Origin: Candidatus Omnitrophota bacterium
GTDB lineage: Bacteria; Omnitrophota; Omnitrophia; Omnitrophales; Aquincolibacteriaceae
Assembly (NCBI GenBank): GCA_022711115.1
Contig: JAKLFP010000012.1
Coordinates: 1-48,119, forward strand
Reading direction: 5' to 3'
DNA: 48,119 nucleotides
Shown here: in pieces, positions 9,439-27,408 of the stretch
Layout: every line of letters starts with the position of its first letter
Position numbering within the stretch: the first letter of the stretch is position 1
Translations under genes and position numbers: made by a program
The notes under the pieces: generated by a model
Database searches by the model: none
The model's input: only the letters and a program-made list of their open reading frames with translations
What the model was told of the DNA's origin: nothing

Positions 9439-10287
9439 ATGACGATGAAACGTTTTCAGAAGAAACAAAATCCTTTAATGGAACCTATCGATAAATGTCT
9501 GGCTTATTTGCGAAAAAAAAATTCCTTTCAGCCGGATATCGCTTTGATTCTTGGAACAGGACTCGGGAATCTTGCGAAACGGATCAAAGCGGAGAAGGTT
9601 TTTGCCTATGAAGAACTGCCTTTTTTTCCAAAGACAACGGTGCAATCACACGGAGGCAATCTGATCCTCGGGGAACTTGGCGGAAAAAAGATCGCGGCCA
9701 TGGAAGGACGATTTCATTTTTATGAGGGGTATTCACTGGCAGAAGTGACGTTCCCGGTTCGGGTTCTCAGGCAGATGGGTGCAAAGACGCTGGTGGTGTC
9801 AAACGCGGCGGGCGGGCTCAACCTCAGCTATAAAAAGGGCGAGATCGTTCTCCTTACGGACCATATTAATTTTATGGGCGTCAACCCGCTTGTGGGTCCG
9901 AACGCGGACAAACTTGGACCGCGGTTTCCGGATATGTGCGAACCTTACTCAAACCGACTCATTGATCTAACGGTTAAGGCTGCTAGGGAACAAAAGATTT
10001 TCGTGAAGCAGGGCGTTTATATTGGGGTAACAGGGCCTTGCCTTGAGACAAGAGCGGAGTATCGCATGATGAAAAATCTTGGTGCGGATCTTGTCGGAAT
10101 GTCCACCGTACCTGAAGTGATCGTGGGAGTGCATATGGGCATGGAAATCCTTGGTGTAAGCATTGTGACCGATACTTGTGATCCGGATCACTTGGAACCA
10201 GTCAATATTCAGGAAATTATCAAAACAGCCAATGAGGCCGGCCCAAAACTCGATAAATTGATTGGCGCGGCAATCGCGAAATTCTAA
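9439..10287 (+). CDS. Purine nucleoside phosphorylase (trimeric type)
   Basis: The enzyme cleaves purine nucleosides with phosphate to free base and ribose-1-phosphate. The 282-residue product shows ILGTGLGNLA, the phosphate/sugar residues in VQSHGGNL and EGRFHFYEGY, and LVVSNAAGGL. It also has the purine-binding segment GPCLETRAEY (E203) and GMSTVPEVIV. The residue equivalent to Asn243 of human PNP is Asp245 here (VTDTCDPDH), so base preference may differ from a strict inosine/guanosine enzyme. ATG 9439 follows the Shine-Dalgarno GGGGAGG at 9427-9433. The open frame further upstream overlaps yggT and is not used. Confidence 0.9.
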   Translation: MTMKRFQKKQNPLMEPIDKCLAYLRKKNSFQPDIALILGTGLGNLAKRIKAEKVFAYEELPFFPKTTVQSHGGNLILGELGGKKIAAMEGRFHFYEGYSLAEVTFPVRVLRQMGAKTLVVSNAAGGLNLSYKKGEIVLLTDHINFMGVNPLVGPNADKLGPRFPDMCEPYSNRLIDLTVKAAREQKIFVKQGVYIGVTGPCLETRAEYRMMKNLGADLVGMSTVPEVIVGVHMGMEILGVSIVTDTCDPDHLEPVNIQEIIKTANEAGPKLDKLIGAAIAKF

Positions 10288-20136: not shown

Positions 20137-20844
20137 GTGAATCCCATCCATTGGTTTTTTCTTATCGGAACAGTGGCCGTGTCTGTTGCCTTTGCTTTTT
20201 ACGGGCAATGGGTATTGTGGCGATATGCTCAGTCGTCCCACCAGACGGTTGTCACTGGTTGCGAAGTAGCGCGTTTTGTTCTAGACCAGGCTGGATTGGT
20301 TCATATCAGTGTGGCGCCGCTGGGGCCTTCCATGGAGCCCTCTTCGGCGGAGGGGCTGTTGCTTGATCCAAGGATCTATGAAGGACGTGATTTTCTTTCG
20401 ATTTTGCAGGCTGCTCGTCAGGCGTTTCTCAAAAGTCAGTTGTCAAATGTTACGTTTTGGATTCGACTGAAAAAAAGGATTGCTTTTATCAATTGGTTTC
20501 TGGTTCTGAGCGGCTGGGTGCTTTTGGTTCTTGGAAATTTTTTTGCACCTCTCCGGTTTTTTATCAACCTCGGGCTCGGATGCTTTTGTGTGGTGATGCT
20601 CTTGGCCATTTTTGATCTGCCGTTTGAGGTGGAGGTGGCGGAAAGGACTTCAGCCTTGATCAAGCGTTACGGACATTTTCAGCATAATGAAATGATGTGC
20701 CTCAAGAAGATCAACCAGGCCAGGGCTTTTTGGGGATTGACCGCGATTGTTCTGGCTCCCTTTCAATGTTTTTATTTTTTAGGCAAGAACGGAAAAATCT
20801 ATGGCTCTGAAAAATCTACGAGAATTTATCGAAACGCTTCGTGA
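20137..20844 (+). CDS. YugP-like membrane protein lacking the HExxH protease motif
   Basis: The 235-residue protein resembles the YugP/DUF232 membrane zinc metallopeptidases. It has an N-terminal helix (about 5-28), the family-like GCEVARFVLDQAGL (residues 41-54), a LLLDPRIYEGRDF strand region, two central helices (about 112-165) and a DLPFEVEVAERT segment. At the position of the usual AAHECGHA it reads AARQAFLK (about 92-99), so both metal-binding histidines and the catalytic glutamate are absent. It is probably non-catalytic. It starts at GTG 20137, and its 3' end overlaps the UbiD-like gene by 44 bases. The family assignment is from memory of the motif order. Confidence 0.65.
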   Translation: MNPIHWFFLIGTVAVSVAFAFYGQWVLWRYAQSSHQTVVTGCEVARFVLDQAGLVHISVAPLGPSMEPSSAEGLLLDPRIYEGRDFLSILQAARQAFLKSQLSNVTFWIRLKKRIAFINWFLVLSGWVLLVLGNFFAPLRFFINLGLGCFCVVMLLAIFDLPFEVEVAERTSALIKRYGHFQHNEMMCLKKINQARAFWGLTAIVLAPFQCFYFLGKNGKIYGSEKSTRIYRNAS

Positions 20845-22270
20845 AAACGGAGAGATGGTGGATGTGAATGTCTCTGTGGACCCTCAGCTTGAGGTGACGG
20901 AGATCTATGACCGCATCGTAAAAAAAGAAGGGCCTGCGCTTTTCTTCAAACATGTCAAAGGCTCTTCGGTCCCGCTTGTGATCAATCTCTTCGGCTCTTG
21001 GAAGCGGATGGCGATGGCTTTGGGTGTAAAAGATATTTCTGAAGTTACGGAACGGGTTCGTTTGTTTTTAGATCTCAAAGTGCCGCAGGGTTTATTGGAA
21101 AAGCTGGCGATGATCCCAAAGCTTAACGAACTTTATGCGGTCATCCCGAAAATGATCAAGCACGCTCCCTGCCAAGAAGCGGTGATTCGTGTGGGGGAAG
21201 GGCCGATACTTGAGAAGTTACCCATTATCCAGTGCTGGCCCAAAGATGGAGGTAAGTTCATTACTTTTCCGCTGGTGATTACAAAGGACCCTGAGACCGG
21301 CAAACGCAATATCGGACTCTATCGGATGCATGTTTATGATGACAAGACGACCGGGATGCATTGGCAGATCCATAAAGACGGGGCAGATCATTTCCGAAAA
21401 CTCGGAAAAGGGAATCATAAACGTTTACCCGTTGCTTGTGTGATCGGAGCGGATCCGGCGACCATGTTCGCAGCGGCATGTCCGTTGCCGAGCGGCATGG
21501 ATGAAATAATGCTGGCGGGATTCCTCCGGACGAAGCCCGTGGAACTTGTAAAATGCAAGACCATTGATTTGGAAGTGCCGGCCGAAGCTGAGATTGTGCT
21601 TGAAGGTTATGTGGAAGAAGGGGAGATGCGTCTTGAGGGACCGTTCGGAGATCATACGGGTTTTTATTCGAGGGCCAAGGATTTTCCTGTCTTTCACATC
21701 ACATGCATGACACATCGGAAGGATCCGGTTTATGTGACGACCGTTGTCGGACGTTCGCCGATGGAAGATTGTTATATGGGCAAGGCCATTGAGCGGATCT
21801 TTCTGCCTATCATCCAGAAACAGTTTCCGGAGATCACCGATATTCATCTCCCATGGGAAGGGGCGTTCCATAACTGTCTGATTGTGGCCTTGCGTAAAAG
21901 TTATCCGGAACAGGGAAAGAAAATCATTCATGCCTTGTGGGGTCTTGGACAGATGATGTTTTCAAAAATGATCATCGTGCTGGATCATGATACGGATATC
22001 CAGAATCTGCAAGAGGTGTCATGGCGCGTGCTGAATAACATGGATCCGAAACGCGATATGGTGTTTGGGGAAGGACCGCTGGATGAACTGGACCATGCGG
22101 CCCCCAGAGATTTCGGAGGTTCCAAGATCGGGATCGATGCGACACGCAAAACCGAAGCCGAAGGCATGGAACGCCCCTGGCCCGAGGATATCGTGATGGA
22201 TGAAGAGATCCGGAAAAGGGTTGCGGCACGGTGGCGGGAATATGGACTGGATGAAAAATATCTTTACTAA
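20801..22270 (+). CDS. ubiD: UbiD-family decarboxylase (menaquinone pathway, MqnL-like)
   Basis: UbiD enzymes decarboxylate aromatic or unsaturated acids using prenylated FMN. The 489-residue length is typical. Recognisable segments are LREFIETLRENGEMV at the start, the ITKDPETGKRNIGLYRM region and EGPFGDHTGFYS, which carries catalytic residues. The adjacent UbiX-like gene would supply prenyl-FMN and the UbiA-like gene the prenylated substrate. With mqnA and mqnC in the same operon, its substrate is most likely the prenylated dihydroxynaphthoate intermediate of the futalosine route, not the ubiquinone precursor. Confidence 0.92.
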   Translation: MALKNLREFIETLRENGEMVDVNVSVDPQLEVTEIYDRIVKKEGPALFFKHVKGSSVPLVINLFGSWKRMAMALGVKDISEVTERVRLFLDLKVPQGLLEKLAMIPKLNELYAVIPKMIKHAPCQEAVIRVGEGPILEKLPIIQCWPKDGGKFITFPLVITKDPETGKRNIGLYRMHVYDDKTTGMHWQIHKDGADHFRKLGKGNHKRLPVACVIGADPATMFAAACPLPSGMDEIMLAGFLRTKPVELVKCKTIDLEVPAEAEIVLEGYVEEGEMRLEGPFGDHTGFYSRAKDFPVFHITCMTHRKDPVYVTTVVGRSPMEDCYMGKAIERIFLPIIQKQFPEITDIHLPWEGAFHNCLIVALRKSYPEQGKKIIHALWGLGQMMFSKMIIVLDHDTDIQNLQEVSWRVLNNMDPKRDMVFGEGPLDELDHAAPRDFGGSKIGIDATRKTEAEGMERPWPEDIVMDEEIRKRVAARWREYGLDEKYLY

Positions 22271-23120
22271 GGCAGGTATTTTTCTGGAAATGATCAAATT
22301 TGAGCATTCGATTTTTGCCCTGCCTTTTGCGTACCTAGGACTTTTTTTTGCGGAAAAGAAAGTGCCAAGCTTTTTTCTTTTTTTTTGGATCACGATGGCG
22401 ATGGTGAGCTTTCGAACGATGGCGATGGGGCTAAATCGGCTGATGGACCGCTCGCTTGATGCGGAAAATCCAAGGACTCAAGCGCGTGCGCTTCCTGCAA
22501 AAAAAATTCGGATTTCGGTAGTTTGGTTGTTGGTGTCGCTATCTTTTTTGATCTTTGAATGGAGTGCTTTCAAACTTGGGATCATGTGCCTGTGGCTTTC
22601 GCCGGTTCCATTAGTGCTGGCTGTCATCTATCCTTTCACCAAAAGATTTACCTGGCTTTCACATTTTATGCTCGGCCTGATTCTTGGAATTGCTCCATAC
22701 GGTGCTTGGATCGCGAGTCGGCAGGAATTTTCATGGGTGCCGGCTTTTTTGACTTTGGGAGTGACCGTGTGGGTGGCGGGTTTTGATATGATCTACGCTT
22801 TACAGGACGTGGAATTTGACAGAGCCAAAGGACTCTTTTCATTCCCTGCAAAGTTTGGTGAAAGAAGAACGCTTCAAGTCACGAGGGGGCTGCATGCAGC
22901 GAGTGTGATTTGTTGGGCGGCTGCTGGCTTTTTGAATGAAATGGGGCTGATCTATTGGCTCGGTTTGATTCTTGCGACTTATTTTTTGATTCGCGAATAC
23001 CAGATCATCAAGTCGTTTGGTATCGCAAAGATCCATGAGGCTTTTTTTGTGATGAACGCCATTGTGAGTACGGCGATCTTTTTAGCGGCGGTGTTGGATA
23101 TACTTGGGAAAAGGGGATAA
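22251..23120 (+). CDS. ubiA: UbiA-family prenyltransferase (MqnP-like)
   Basis: This polytopic membrane enzyme attaches a polyprenyl chain to an aromatic acid. About eight or nine hydrophobic segments are present. The first aspartate-rich motif is NRLMDRSLDAENPRT and the second DVEFDRAKGLFSFP; both bind the prenyl diphosphate through magnesium. The start is uncertain: ATG 22251 gives MKNIFTKAG, while ATG 22242 lies close to a GGCGGGAA ribosome site. Either overlaps the ubiD-like end. Context with mqnA and mqnC points to the naphthoate-type acceptor of the futalosine pathway. Confidence 0.9.
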   Translation: MKNIFTKAGIFLEMIKFEHSIFALPFAYLGLFFAEKKVPSFFLFFWITMAMVSFRTMAMGLNRLMDRSLDAENPRTQARALPAKKIRISVVWLLVSLSFLIFEWSAFKLGIMCLWLSPVPLVLAVIYPFTKRFTWLSHFMLGLILGIAPYGAWIASRQEFSWVPAFLTLGVTVWVAGFDMIYALQDVEFDRAKGLFSFPAKFGERRTLQVTRGLHAASVICWAAAGFLNEMGLIYWLGLILATYFLIREYQIIKSFGIAKIHEAFFVMNAIVSTAIFLAAVLDILGKRG

Positions 23121-23130
23121 AGTAAAAACC

Positions 23131-23766
23131 ATGAAACCTTATGTAGTAGCGATCACTGGTGCTAGCGGTGCAATCTATGGTGTGCGGTTGTTACAGGTCA
23201 TGGCCGAAATGAATATGCCCGTGGAGCTTGTGATCTCAGATACGGCGAAAATTGTAATGAAAGAGGAGTTGGGGATTGAGGGAATCACCCAAGACAATAA
23301 CCGGTGTTTGACTTCGTGGCCTCAAAGTCTAACACCGGGTGTTGAGAAGGGTATACATCTTCACGACTTCCACGACTTTACCGCACCGATCGCAAGCGGT
23401 TCTTATCCCGTGGCGGGCATGGTGATCGTTCCGTGCAGTATGGGAACCTTGGGAGCGATTGCTTCGGGACTCAGCCAGAATCTGATTCAGCGGGCTGCGG
23501 ATTGTACGATCAAAGAGGGCCGGAAACTGGTGATTGTCCCGCGCGAAACACCGCTCAGTGTGATCCATCTCGAGAACATGCTTAAACTCGCAAGGCTCGG
23601 TGTGAGGATCGTGCCGCCGATGCCCGCCTTTTATGGGGCACAGCAACAAATATCCGATCTCGTCGATTTCATTGTGGGAAAGATTCTCGACCAACTGGGT
23701 ATCTCTCATGGGCTTTATCCAAGGTGGGTCGGAAGCCTTTCGGGGGATCAAGAAGGTCTCTCATGA
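23131..23766 (+). CDS. ubiX: UbiX-family flavin prenyltransferase (MqnM-like)
   Basis: UbiX joins dimethylallyl phosphate to FMN to make the prenyl-FMN cofactor of UbiD. The 211-residue protein starts at the family motif AITGASGAIYGVRLL. It carries PCSMGTLGAIASGLSQNLI, the RAADCTIKEGRKLVIVPRE segment and a C-terminal PPMPAFY, all standard. ATG 23131 is preferred over a TTG at 23104 that would lie inside the ubiA-like gene. The last part overlaps mqnA by ATGA. Confidence 0.93.
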   Translation: MKPYVVAITGASGAIYGVRLLQVMAEMNMPVELVISDTAKIVMKEELGIEGITQDNNRCLTSWPQSLTPGVEKGIHLHDFHDFTAPIASGSYPVAGMVIVPCSMGTLGAIASGLSQNLIQRAADCTIKEGRKLVIVPRETPLSVIHLENMLKLARLGVRIVPPMPAFYGAQQQISDLVDFIVGKILDQLGISHGLYPRWVGSLSGDQEGLS

Positions 23767-24614
23767 CAACCCAGACACTACTCCGGATAGGGAAGATCCG
23801 TTATATTAATTGCCTGCCGTTTTATTTCGGGCTTGCAGAATTATTCCGTGAAAAAGGTTTTGAACAGGAAATGAGTTTTTTTGAATCTTATCCTGCTGCG
23901 ATCAATGAGGCCATGCAAAATCGGGAGATCGATGCCGCGCCTATTTCCTCGTTTGAATATCTTCAGCACCAGGATGACTATGTTTTGATGCCGGATCTGG
24001 CGATCGGGGCGCGTCTTTTTGCCCGAAGCGTTCTTTTAATTTCCAAGAAAAAAATTGAATCACTCAATCATGACGTGATCGCCCTTTCCAAGGAAAGCCT
24101 TAGCTCTGCCAGTCTTTTGCGGATCCTCCTGAAACGAAAATATTTGTACCGTAATACGTTCGATCTGACCGATCAGGATCCCGAAGCCATGCTTCAGAAA
24201 TATTCTGCGGCGCTTGTGATCGGGGATCAGGCGCTTTTTTGTCAGCCAAAAGAGATGATTTATAAATATGATCTCGGTGAGATGTGGCAGCATTGGACGG
24301 GCAAACCTTTTGTGTTCTCGCTTTGGGCCGTGCGCCAGGAGTTTGCCGCGCAGTATCCGGAACAGGTCAAGCTGATGGCGGTGTTGTTAAAGGAGAACCT
24401 ACTGACTAATTTAAGCGATCCGGAAATGCTTTTGAAAAAAGGACTTGGGATCGCGTCCGCGGACAAACCGTTTTGTCAAATGCTGGGTTACTTTGTAAAT
24501 CTTCAGTATACACTCGATCAGCATATGAAAGACGGTCTGGCCAAGTTCTTCGAATTCGCCCACGAAGAGGGTCTTGCACCTGCTCCCAAGCCCTTGAGAT
24601 TTTTCTCGACATGA
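23763..24614 (+). CDS. mqnA: Chorismate dehydratase (futalosine pathway)
   Basis: MqnA converts chorismate to 3-enolpyruvyl-benzoate, the entry step of the futalosine menaquinone pathway. The 283-residue protein has the periplasmic-binding-like fold of the family. Diagnostic segments are RIGKIRYINCLPFYFG at the N-terminus, DAAPISSFEYL, the SKESLSSASLLRILL loop and VIGDQAL. ATG 23763 makes an ATGA overlap with the ubiX-like gene; mqnC begins over its stop in the same way. Confidence 0.95.
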   Translation: MTTQTLLRIGKIRYINCLPFYFGLAELFREKGFEQEMSFFESYPAAINEAMQNREIDAAPISSFEYLQHQDDYVLMPDLAIGARLFARSVLLISKKKIESLNHDVIALSKESLSSASLLRILLKRKYLYRNTFDLTDQDPEAMLQKYSAALVIGDQALFCQPKEMIYKYDLGEMWQHWTGKPFVFSLWAVRQEFAAQYPEQVKLMAVLLKENLLTNLSDPEMLLKKGLGIASADKPFCQMLGYFVNLQYTLDQHMKDGLAKFFEFAHEEGLAPAPKPLRFFST

Positions 24615-25732
24615 GCATCCAGGAAAAGATCCTCGAAAAACGTCTCGGCGGAGGGCGTCTTTCCCTGGAAGACGGACTTTTGCTTTATTCCTGCGATCTT
24701 TTGGCATTAGGCCAAGCGGCACAAGCTGTCACGCCGCATCTTTTGCCGGAGATCGTTACGTTCGTGGTAGATCGCAATATCAGCTATACCAATGTTTGCA
24801 CGATCGGTTGCGACTTTTGCGCGTTTCATTGTCAGCCGAAGGCAAAGGATGCCTATCTCCTGACTAAAGAGGAGATTCTCGACAAGGTGAAAGAGCTTGT
24901 CGATCTAGGCGGGACACAAGTCCTGATCCAAGGCGGCGTTCGTTCTGATCTTACACTTGATTATTATCTTGATATGGTCCGGGCCATCCATGAAAAATTC
25001 CCAAAGATCCATATTCATTCTTTCTCAGCCGTCGAGATGGACATGCTTGCAAAAAAAAGCGGATTGCCACTGTCTGAACTTTTCCAGCAATTCAAAAAAG
25101 CCGGTTTGAATTCCTTGCCTGGCGGGGGCGCGGAAATTTTGGCGGAACGTGTTCGAAAACTGATCAGTCCAAAAAAGATATCGTCCGATCGCTGGCTCGA
25201 GGTCATGCGAACTGCTCATGAAGCCGGTTTGAAAACCACAGCGACTATGGTTTTTGGTCATGTGGAAACCTTAGAAGAAAGGGTGATGCATTTGATCCGG
25301 TTAAGGGAATTGCAGGATGAAACGAACGGTTTTCGGGCTTTCATCCCCTGGAGTTTTGTGCCATTCAAACCCGGTTCAAGATCCAGTGTTGAGACTCGAG
25401 GAAACGAAGCCGAATACTGGGCGCTGCAAGGGGTCATGCCCTCAAGCGGTGATGATTATCTCAGAACTGTCGCGATTTCGCGGCTCATGCTCGATAATTT
25501 TGAACACATCCAGAGCGGATGGTTGACAGAGGGGTTAAGGCTCGGACAGATCGCCTTGGCGTTCGGCTGCGATGATATGGGGGGAACATTGTTCGAAGAT
25601 AAAGTGCTGGAACCGACGGGCATCGAAGTTCATACACGCAGGGATGATCTAATTCGTCTTATCAAAAGCGCCGGTTTAACTCCTGCCCAACGCGATACGA
25701 ATTACCATGTTCTCAATATCTTTGAATCATGA
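24611..25732 (+). CDS. mqnC: Cyclic dehypoxanthinyl futalosine synthase (radical SAM)
   Basis: MqnC cyclises dehypoxanthinyl futalosine through a radical-SAM mechanism. The 373-residue protein has the CxxxCxxC cluster at C63, C67 and C70 (VCTIGCDFCAFH). GGTQVLIQGGV, GLNSLPGGGAEIL, TTATMVFGH and DNFEHIQSGW follow. GGTQ and PGGGAEIL favour MqnC over its paralogue MqnE. The long open frame starting at 24473 lies inside mqnA; ATG 24611 gives the correct N-terminus MSIQEKILEKR. The mqnE, mqnB and mqnD genes are not in this window. Confidence 0.95.
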   Translation: MSIQEKILEKRLGGGRLSLEDGLLLYSCDLLALGQAAQAVTPHLLPEIVTFVVDRNISYTNVCTIGCDFCAFHCQPKAKDAYLLTKEEILDKVKELVDLGGTQVLIQGGVRSDLTLDYYLDMVRAIHEKFPKIHIHSFSAVEMDMLAKKSGLPLSELFQQFKKAGLNSLPGGGAEILAERVRKLISPKKISSDRWLEVMRTAHEAGLKTTATMVFGHVETLEERVMHLIRLRELQDETNGFRAFIPWSFVPFKPGSRSSVETRGNEAEYWALQGVMPSSGDDYLRTVAISRLMLDNFEHIQSGWLTEGLRLGQIALAFGCDDMGGTLFEDKVLEPTGIEVHTRRDDLIRLIKSAGLTPAQRDTNYHVLNIFES

Positions 25733-26232
25733 ACGCGGCTCTTATTCTCGAAGTTGTTAACCCGCTCCTGATCCGGAGGGTTTGTGAATTAGCCGAAGAA
25801 ATTTGGCGTGAGCATTACACGCCCATCATCGGGAGAGAGCAAGTGGACTATATGCTTGAGAAGTTTCAGTCCGAGCAGTCGGTGGCGGCACAAATCCAGG
25901 CCGGATGCCTTTATTATCTAGTTAAAAACGATCAAAATGATGTGGGTTATTTTTGCGTTCAGCCTAAACGAGCTTCTAACGAATTATTTTTAAGCAAATT
26001 TTATATCAGGGCTCCAGCACGAGGCAGAGGGTATGGCAGGATAGCGCAGGATTTTATCGAGCAGTTGGCGCGTCAAAAAGGACTTGGCAAGATCATGCTG
26101 ACGGTGAACAAACATAACGAAAACTCCATCAAGATCTATCAAAAGATGGGATTTGAAATCACAGAGGCGATCGTTCAGGATATCGGGAGCGGTTTTTTCA
26201 TGGATGATTACCGGATGGAAAAATGCTGTTAA
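25729..26232 (+). CDS. GNAT-family N-acetyltransferase
   Basis: The 167-residue protein is a single GNAT domain. The acetyl-CoA-binding motif A is FYIRAPARGRGYGRIAQDFI, and motif B includes LTVNKHNENSIKIYQKMGFE. Substrates of this family range from amines to protein N-termini, and nothing in the sequence decides between them. It sits between mqnC and the ubiE-like gene, coupled by ATGA upstream and one base from the next gene. It is therefore co-expressed with menaquinone synthesis. No acetyltransferase is a known step of that pathway. Confidence 0.85.
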   Translation: MNAALILEVVNPLLIRRVCELAEEIWREHYTPIIGREQVDYMLEKFQSEQSVAAQIQAGCLYYLVKNDQNDVGYFCVQPKRASNELFLSKFYIRAPARGRGYGRIAQDFIEQLARQKGLGKIMLTVNKHNENSIKIYQKMGFEITEAIVQDIGSGFFMDDYRMEKCC

Positions 26233-26233
26233 G

Positions 26234-26956
26234 ATGAAAAAAAAATATACAGTACCGGACCCAAAATTCATTTGTCAGGCATTTGACTCGATCAGCCCGC
26301 GTTATGATCTGCTGAACCAGGTTCTTAGCTTTGGTATGTCCGAATCCTGGCGCAAGCGTTCGGCCAGGATCATTTTGAGTGAACCTGGTTTCTCACCCAA
26401 AAGTATTTTAGACTTGGGTTGTGGCACCGGGAAATTTCTCGAATGTTTTCTTCGGAGCAGGGCTTGGGAGCATGCGGTGGGGGTGGATTTTTCATCATCG
26501 ATGCTTCAAAGAGCACGGGAAACGATTCCGGGCAATGTGCTCTGGTTGCAGGAAGATTTTGAGGCGTTGCCGTTTCTTGAATCAAGTTTTGATCTCATCA
26601 TTTCGGGATTCACGCTGCGAAGCGTTCAAAAGCTTCCGGAGTTCCTTGGAACTGTCTACCGGGTCCTGAGACCCGGAGGGAAGGCAGCATTTCTCGATCT
26701 GACGCTTCCCCCGCATCCTTTGGCCCGAATGCTATGCTATCCCTATTTGAGATTCTTTTTACCCATTATGGGATGGCTTCTGTCCGGGAATCGGGCGGCC
26801 TACGATTTTCTTTCTGGTTCTGTGAGGTCTTTCCCGCCGCCTGAAAATACCATACGCCTTATGAAAACCGTGGGTTTCAGGGAATGTGACAGTAAATGCT
26901 TTGCTTTTGGCGCTGCAACGCTTATCATAGGCGGAAAATCACTTTCGGAATCATGA
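26234..26956 (+). CDS. ubiE: UbiE/MenG-family methyltransferase
   Basis: This SAM-dependent C-methyltransferase probably makes the last step from demethylmenaquinone to menaquinone. The 240-residue protein begins with the family-like FDSISPRYDLLNQVLSFG. The SAM-binding motif ILDLGCGTGKF is at about 58-68, then VGVDFSSSML and the post-motif VYRVLRPGGKAAFLDL. The start at 26234 lies two bases after the GNAT stop. The stop overlaps the next gene by ATGA. Confidence 0.92.
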   Translation: MKKKYTVPDPKFICQAFDSISPRYDLLNQVLSFGMSESWRKRSARIILSEPGFSPKSILDLGCGTGKFLECFLRSRAWEHAVGVDFSSSMLQRARETIPGNVLWLQEDFEALPFLESSFDLIISGFTLRSVQKLPEFLGTVYRVLRPGGKAAFLDLTLPPHPLARMLCYPYLRFFLPIMGWLLSGNRAAYDFLSGSVRSFPPPENTIRLMKTVGFRECDSKCFAFGAATLIIGGKSLSES

Positions 26957-27408
26957 CTCCTGAAGAAAAAATCAAACAATTAGGCTTTGTTCTACCGCCA
27001 GTACCGAAGCCTGCGGGTGTGTATCTGCCTTTCTTAGAAGCCGGCAAGATGGCCTATTTAAGCGGACAGCTTTCCAAGGACGCGGATGGAAAGATTTTTG
27101 CCGGGAAGGTGGGCAAGGATCTTACGCGGGAACAAGGTCAAGGAGCGGCGAGGCTTGCCGCACTGAATGCTCTGGCTGTCATGAAGCATTTGATCGGATT
27201 TGATAAAATTGCACACATTGTAAAAATGACGGGTTTTGTGCAAACGGCGCCGGATTTTTATGAGATTCCAACGGTGTTAAACGGGGCTTCGGAGATTTTC
27301 GGGCAGGTGTTTGGCGAGTTGGGTCAGCATGCGCGTTCCGCAGTCGGGGTTACGAGTCTTCCGATGAATGCCGCGGTGGAAATTGAACTTGTCCTTGAAT
27401 TGAAGTAA
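26953..27408 (+). CDS. RidA/YjgF-family protein
   Basis: The 151-residue protein has the RidA fold pattern: an early YLSGQLSKDADGKIFAGKVG segment, a central helix with ALNALAVMKHLIG and a C-terminal SLPMNAAVEIELVLEL. RidA proteins hydrolyse reactive enamine/imine intermediates; this longer form belongs to a side branch whose activity is less certain. The ATGA overlap with the ubiE-like gene makes it the last gene of the menaquinone operon. Its role there is not known. Confidence 0.88.
   Translation: MTPEEKIKQLGFVLPPVPKPAGVYLPFLEAGKMAYLSGQLSKDADGKIFAGKVGKDLTREQGQGAARLAALNALAVMKHLIGFDKIAHIVKMTGFVQTAPDFYEIPTVLNGASEIFGQVFGELGQHARSAVGVTSLPMNAAVEIELVLELK

Follow-up and report, generated by a model that had tools for sequence, protein, structure and literature searches.

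A Rid1-type gene and a clade-restricted GNAT gene in the futalosine-pathway menaquinone operon of one Omnitrophota order

Introduction

Two genes that correspond to no established step of the futalosine pathway, one for a GNAT acetyltransferase and one for a Rid-type protein, lie among the menaquinone genes of a genome, 2.5 Mb in size and 95.8% complete, from the uncultured and little-known bacterial phylum Omnitrophota, which raises the question of whether either takes part in making the quinone. An earlier note on this DNA had suggested that both could handle a reactive or toxic intermediate, or that one may serve a missing step. Here, we describe the gene content of this locus in the window (the whole stretch of DNA that was analysed, 48,119 nucleotides of contig JAKLFP010000012.1), its conservation among related genomes, and the placement of the remaining pathway genes. 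A literature search found no open paper in which RidA is named together with futalosine. The locus is probably an ordinary futalosine-pathway menaquinone operon of one Omnitrophota order to which two unrelated extra genes have been added.

Results

The ORF listing and family scans recover all of the operon genes named in the earlier note, in the order ubiD-ubiA-ubiX-mqnA-mqnC-GNAT-ubiE-Rid and on one strand (positions 20801-27408). The features discussed below are as follows.

9451-10287, + strand: class I purine nucleoside phosphorylase (PNP); TIGR01700 307 bits, PRK08202 362 bits
20801-22270, + strand: ubiD-type menaquinone decarboxylase (MqnL-like); TIGR03701 mena_SCO4490 609 bits, cut-off 496
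22242-23120, + strand: ubiA-type prenyltransferase (MqnP-like); PF01040, and TIGR01475 281 bits, above cut-off
23131-23766, + strand: ubiX-type flavin prenyltransferase (prFMN for UbiD); TIGR00421 217 bits, above cut-off
23763-24614, + strand: mqnA; PF02621 E=3e-57
24611-25732, + strand: mqnC, radical SAM cyclic dehypoxanthinyl futalosine synthase; TIGR03699 448 bits, cut-off 428
25729-26232, + strand: GNAT acetyltransferase; PF00583 E=2e-15, above the gathering score
26234-26956, + strand: ubiE/menG-type methyltransferase; TIGR01934 169 bits, above cut-off
26953-27408, + strand: Rid1-type protein; PF14588 E=8.5e-17, plus PF01042
27431-28312, + strand: CPBP/Rce1-like intramembrane protease with an EExxxR motif; PF02517 E=1e-16

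Joining by ATGA overlaps, noted earlier for the whole series, is found at four of the seven junctions (ubiX/mqnA, mqnA/mqnC, mqnC/GNAT and ubiE/Rid); the other three are an overlap of about 29 nt (ubiD/ubiA) and gaps of 10 nt (ubiA/ubiX) and 1 nt (GNAT/ubiE). The operon runs past position 27408, with the CPBP/Rce1-like gene starting 22 nt after Rid and overlapping mrp, and folE next, and the transcription unit very likely extends beyond Rid into CPBP and mrp.

The genome shares with the known futalosine pathway mqnA, mqnC, mqnE and mqnD, a set that is complete here, together with the ubiA-, ubiD-, ubiX- and ubiE-like late genes, and menaquinone production by the host is predicted from these genes. 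It differs from the known pathway in having no mqnB/MTAN, in the unlinked position of mqnE and mqnD, and in the addition of GNAT, Rid1, CPBP and mrp to the operon. As had been supposed, mqnE and mqnD are elsewhere in the genome: mqnE lies on separate contig C1 between ispG-like and greA-like genes (TIGR03700, above cut-off), and mqnD, the second PF02621 protein of the genome, on a third contig, C22.

A CofH-like radical SAM gene, a third paralogue beside MqnC and MqnE, was observed in several families of the order. It adjoins mqnE in families f8 and f6, is near it in f2 and lies elsewhere in f7; it is thus present in families without Rid1, and f7 has the CofH-like gene and Rid1 together. No match of comparable score was found in the window's genome. 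The copies located, by locus, are as follows.

L168, 1131-2342: CofH-like gene
L169, 156-1271: CofH-like gene
L170, 3474-4571: CofH-like gene
L171, 1227-2366: CofH-like gene

The Rid protein of the window has the Rid1 subfamily profile (PF14588, about 150 aa, similarity to PA0814/ACIAD3089) and is the product of the only Rid gene in the genome (one PF01042 and one PF14588 match). Its nearest solved structure is 3D01 (E=3e-34, almost full length), followed by Pseudomonas PA0814 (9BK9, E=2e-26) and Acinetobacter ACIAD3089 (9BKB). The 3D01 protein, which we take to be an Atu1372-type protein from Agrobacterium, is itself uncharacterised. Residue R128 aligns with the PA0814 Arg that is the equivalent of RidA Arg105, and Y24, R128 and E143 are invariant in all 25 Rid1 sequences of the order; N139 and E143 belong to the peptide pattern by which the outside Rid1 sequences were found, and invariance there comes partly from selection. 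Imine deaminase activity has been shown in vitro for PA0814 and ACIAD3089, the equivalent of RidA Arg105 predicts activity, and Rid1 proteins are reported to let a Salmonella ridA mutant grow again (PMC5619798). With PF14588 and the catalytic Arg shared, the window's gene is predicted to encode an imine/enamine deaminase of the Rid1 subfamily, and it differs from these two in its location in a menaquinone operon.

The search for mqnC covered 117 genomes, and the surroundings of the gene were compared in forty neighbourhoods. With the window counted in, 34 loci of the order span ubiE to CPBP. In 25 of these 34, a Rid gene separates ubiE from CPBP. It is present at the locus in families f1, f3, f4 and f7 and absent from f2, f6 and f8; its seeming absence in L031, L038 and L048 is due to an N run or contig ends. 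PF14588 is single-copy in the relatives and sits at the mqnC locus wherever the contig is long enough. Within the 117-genome set, Omnitrophota from outside the order have no PF14588; among these is family f29, which does have mqn genes. The adjacency of Rid to ubiE that the earlier note asked about is therefore not incidental in this lineage. The CPBP/Rce1-like gene after ubiE was observed to be more constant than Rid, occurring in 34/34 order loci that span the junction.

The 25 order Rid1 sequences form one clade (support 0.98) against 59 outside sequences, and Rid1 has a single origin within the order. In a concatenated tree of five mqn/ubi proteins, f6 and f8 form one clade (support 1.00) nested among the Rid-bearing families, so that loss of Rid1 in at least one subclade (f6+f8), with the pathway retained, is the simplest account. 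The deep branches of this tree, among them those that place f2 and f7, have poor support, and both one early gain and presence in the ancestor of the order are compatible with it. Family f8 keeps mqnA, mqnC, ubiE and CPBP and encodes no Rid, whether PF14588 or PF01042; in f2 and f6, PF14588 is absent and mqnA, mqnC and ubiE are present.

Outside Omnitrophota, none of the window's operon genes was found near Rid1 in 59 loci (available flanks up to 8 kb). Many alphaproteobacterial Rid1 genes (L113-L157) were observed beside GDPD, FemAB-like, EipB-like and HIT genes (names by reading sequences), a context unrelated to quinones, whereas the window's Rid1 lies in a menaquinone operon.

The GNAT gene is found in 3/34 order loci. 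At the mqnC/ubiE junction it is restricted to two genera, the window's and g18, with similar genes there only in L042 and L044. The window's genus, g18, g13 and g8 form one clade (support 1.00). In g13 it is a gene for an 858-aa PEP-synthase-like protein that stands between mqnC and ubiE (L029, 8868-11444; L040, 5515-8091), and in g18 a 100-aa ORF stands between mqnC and GNAT in L044 (2766-3068, reverse-complement coordinates), likely a decayed remnant of the PEP-synthase-like gene. The presence of different genes at mqnC/ubiE points to an insertion-prone junction and to a GNAT that is incidental to the pathway. The nearest solved structures to the GNAT are YycN (1ON0, E=6e-11) and the PaiA-type 3K9U; it has the GNAT fold in common with YycN/PaiA-like acetyltransferases, and its match to them is weak, below the NCBIfam cut-offs. 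A role as pathway enzyme was rejected on its presence in 3/34 loci only and on the unrelated gene at the same junction in g13. The earlier note had held that genes not conserved beside mqnC and ubiE would be an incidental arrangement, and its GNAT half is closed as such; the GNAT appears to have no bearing on quinones.

The earlier note would have mqnB elsewhere too, but unlike mqnD and mqnE it was not found in the window's genome. MqnB is a PF01048 member (PMC3914697), and neither mqnB nor MTAN was found; the sole PF01048 protein of the genome is the class I PNP. One such protein, likewise a class I PNP, is present in nearly all genomes of the order, and the gap is order-wide, shared by families that lack Rid and by families that lack the GNAT. 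The adenosine-deaminase family PF00962 has no match in the window's genome, and no nucleoside hydrolase (PF01156) was found in 47 genomes. The two PF01979 proteins of the window's genome were read by eye as dihydroorotase and TatD. Where a second PF01048 copy occurs, in f7 and G041, it looked by eye AMP-nucleosidase-like or otherwise unlike MqnB. Since other lineages are known to use non-orthologous enzymes for early Mqn steps (PMC4746308), the absence of mqnB/MTAN is compatible with a working futalosine pathway.

As a hypothesis, the class I PNP could carry out aminofutalosine or nucleoside cleavage, for which it is the only recognised candidate. In many genomes of the order its gene precedes mqnC on the same strand, at a distance of about 12-16 kb. 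Aligned by eye, the PNP pocket has an Asp at the position of Asn243 and a residue other than His at that of His257, which we take to be the corresponding positions of human PNP. These residues were rejected as a sign of aminofutalosine specificity: PNPs of mqn-less Omnitrophota families have this motif too, as do 4M1E and 4LNA, homologues in the PDB. The pocket residues, being found phylum-wide, give no evidence for PNP in the mqnB role.

Discussion

We consider it probable that the locus as a whole is an ordinary operon with an accessory, vertically inherited Rid1 of general role and an incidental GNAT. On this view a single event early in the history of the order would have brought the Rid gene into the operon, and it would have been inherited vertically from then on, often translationally coupled to ubiE, with its product the main or the sole Rid protein of the cell. 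Its job would probably be the general one of Rid1, the hydrolysis of 2-aminoacrylate and other reactive imines from PLP enzymes, rather than one specific to the pathway. No obligatory menaquinone step would fall to Rid1, which appears to have been lost in at least one subclade that kept the pathway, and the GNAT gene would be an insertion between mqnC and ubiE, restricted to one clade, whose product acts on a small-molecule or protein substrate of its own. Absence of Rid from f6+f8 with the operon kept, together with 0/59 outside loci near mqn genes, marks Rid1 as conserved yet dispensable, a passenger or an accessory rather than a pathway step. Other operon members without a known quinone role are CPBP and mrp. 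Handling of a reactive intermediate by Rid1 or the GNAT is possible.

A stricter form of this best explanation is pure syntenic inertia, in which Rid1 and CPBP have no link to quinones and gene order erodes slowly. This is plausible, if somewhat doubtful. CPBP, mrp and folE, which are not known as quinone genes, behave alike, and in many genomes the PNP gene too has kept its place upstream of mqnC, about 12-16 kb away; inertia fits less well with the keeping of ubiE-Rid-CPBP in four families that differ in mrp/folE and mqnE placement. The ubiE-Rid adjacency holds while the locus rearranges, with mqnE inserted in f7 and insertions at ubiA/ubiX or mqnC/ubiE in f1, and five f1 genomes (G004, G005, G010, G013 and G016) have a separate canonical RidA-type PF01042 gene and still keep Rid1. 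That Rid1 stays by ubiE through rearrangement, and is kept beside a second Rid, counts against the general role preferred here, as it suggests a function that is non-redundant and possibly local.

Such a role could be that of a dedicated menaquinone accessory, protective and non-obligatory, that disposes of a reactive side product made by one of the operon's enzymes; a damaged prenyl-FMN iminium would be one example, and a compound from off-path chemistry at MqnC or UbiE another. The ubiE-Rid-CPBP order across four families, ATGA coupling in f3, f4, f7 and part of f1, the single origin with invariant active-site residues, and retention even alongside a second Rid gene would all suit it. We nevertheless regard it as unlikely: Rid1 is missing from f8 with the pathway intact, is never beside mqn genes in the 59 loci outside Omnitrophota, and is absent, as PF14588, from the f29 relatives that have mqn genes. 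Nor is a free imine or enamine known to us as a product of any step in the futalosine pathway. The bolder combination, in which Rid1 is a menaquinone quality-control enzyme that quenches a reactive nitrogen intermediate made by an enzyme of the operon and the class I PNP replaces MqnB, is less probable again.

That Rid1 or the GNAT itself replaces the missing MqnB/MTAN step of aminofutalosine cleavage, as the suggestion of a missing step implied, is highly improbable: the genome yields no mqnB, MTAN, adenosine-deaminase-family or nucleoside-hydrolase gene that would leave the step filled, but N-glycosidase chemistry is known for neither fold, the GNAT is in 3/34 loci whereas the gap spans the order, and f8, f6 and f2, which lack PF14588 and keep mqnA, mqnC and ubiE, are equally without an MqnB-like PF01048 protein, so that neither Rid nor GNAT fills the gap.

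With the preferred reading of an ordinary operon, an accessory Rid1 of general role and an incidental GNAT, two points bear on the biology of this order. It has mqnA, mqnC and mqnE and is without the aminofutalosine-cleaving families tested, which poses the question of an MqnB replacement, with PNP as the one candidate. Along with this, the conserved position of Rid1 beside ubiE provides a lineage-level genomic tie between a predicted Rid1 imine deaminase and quinone genes.
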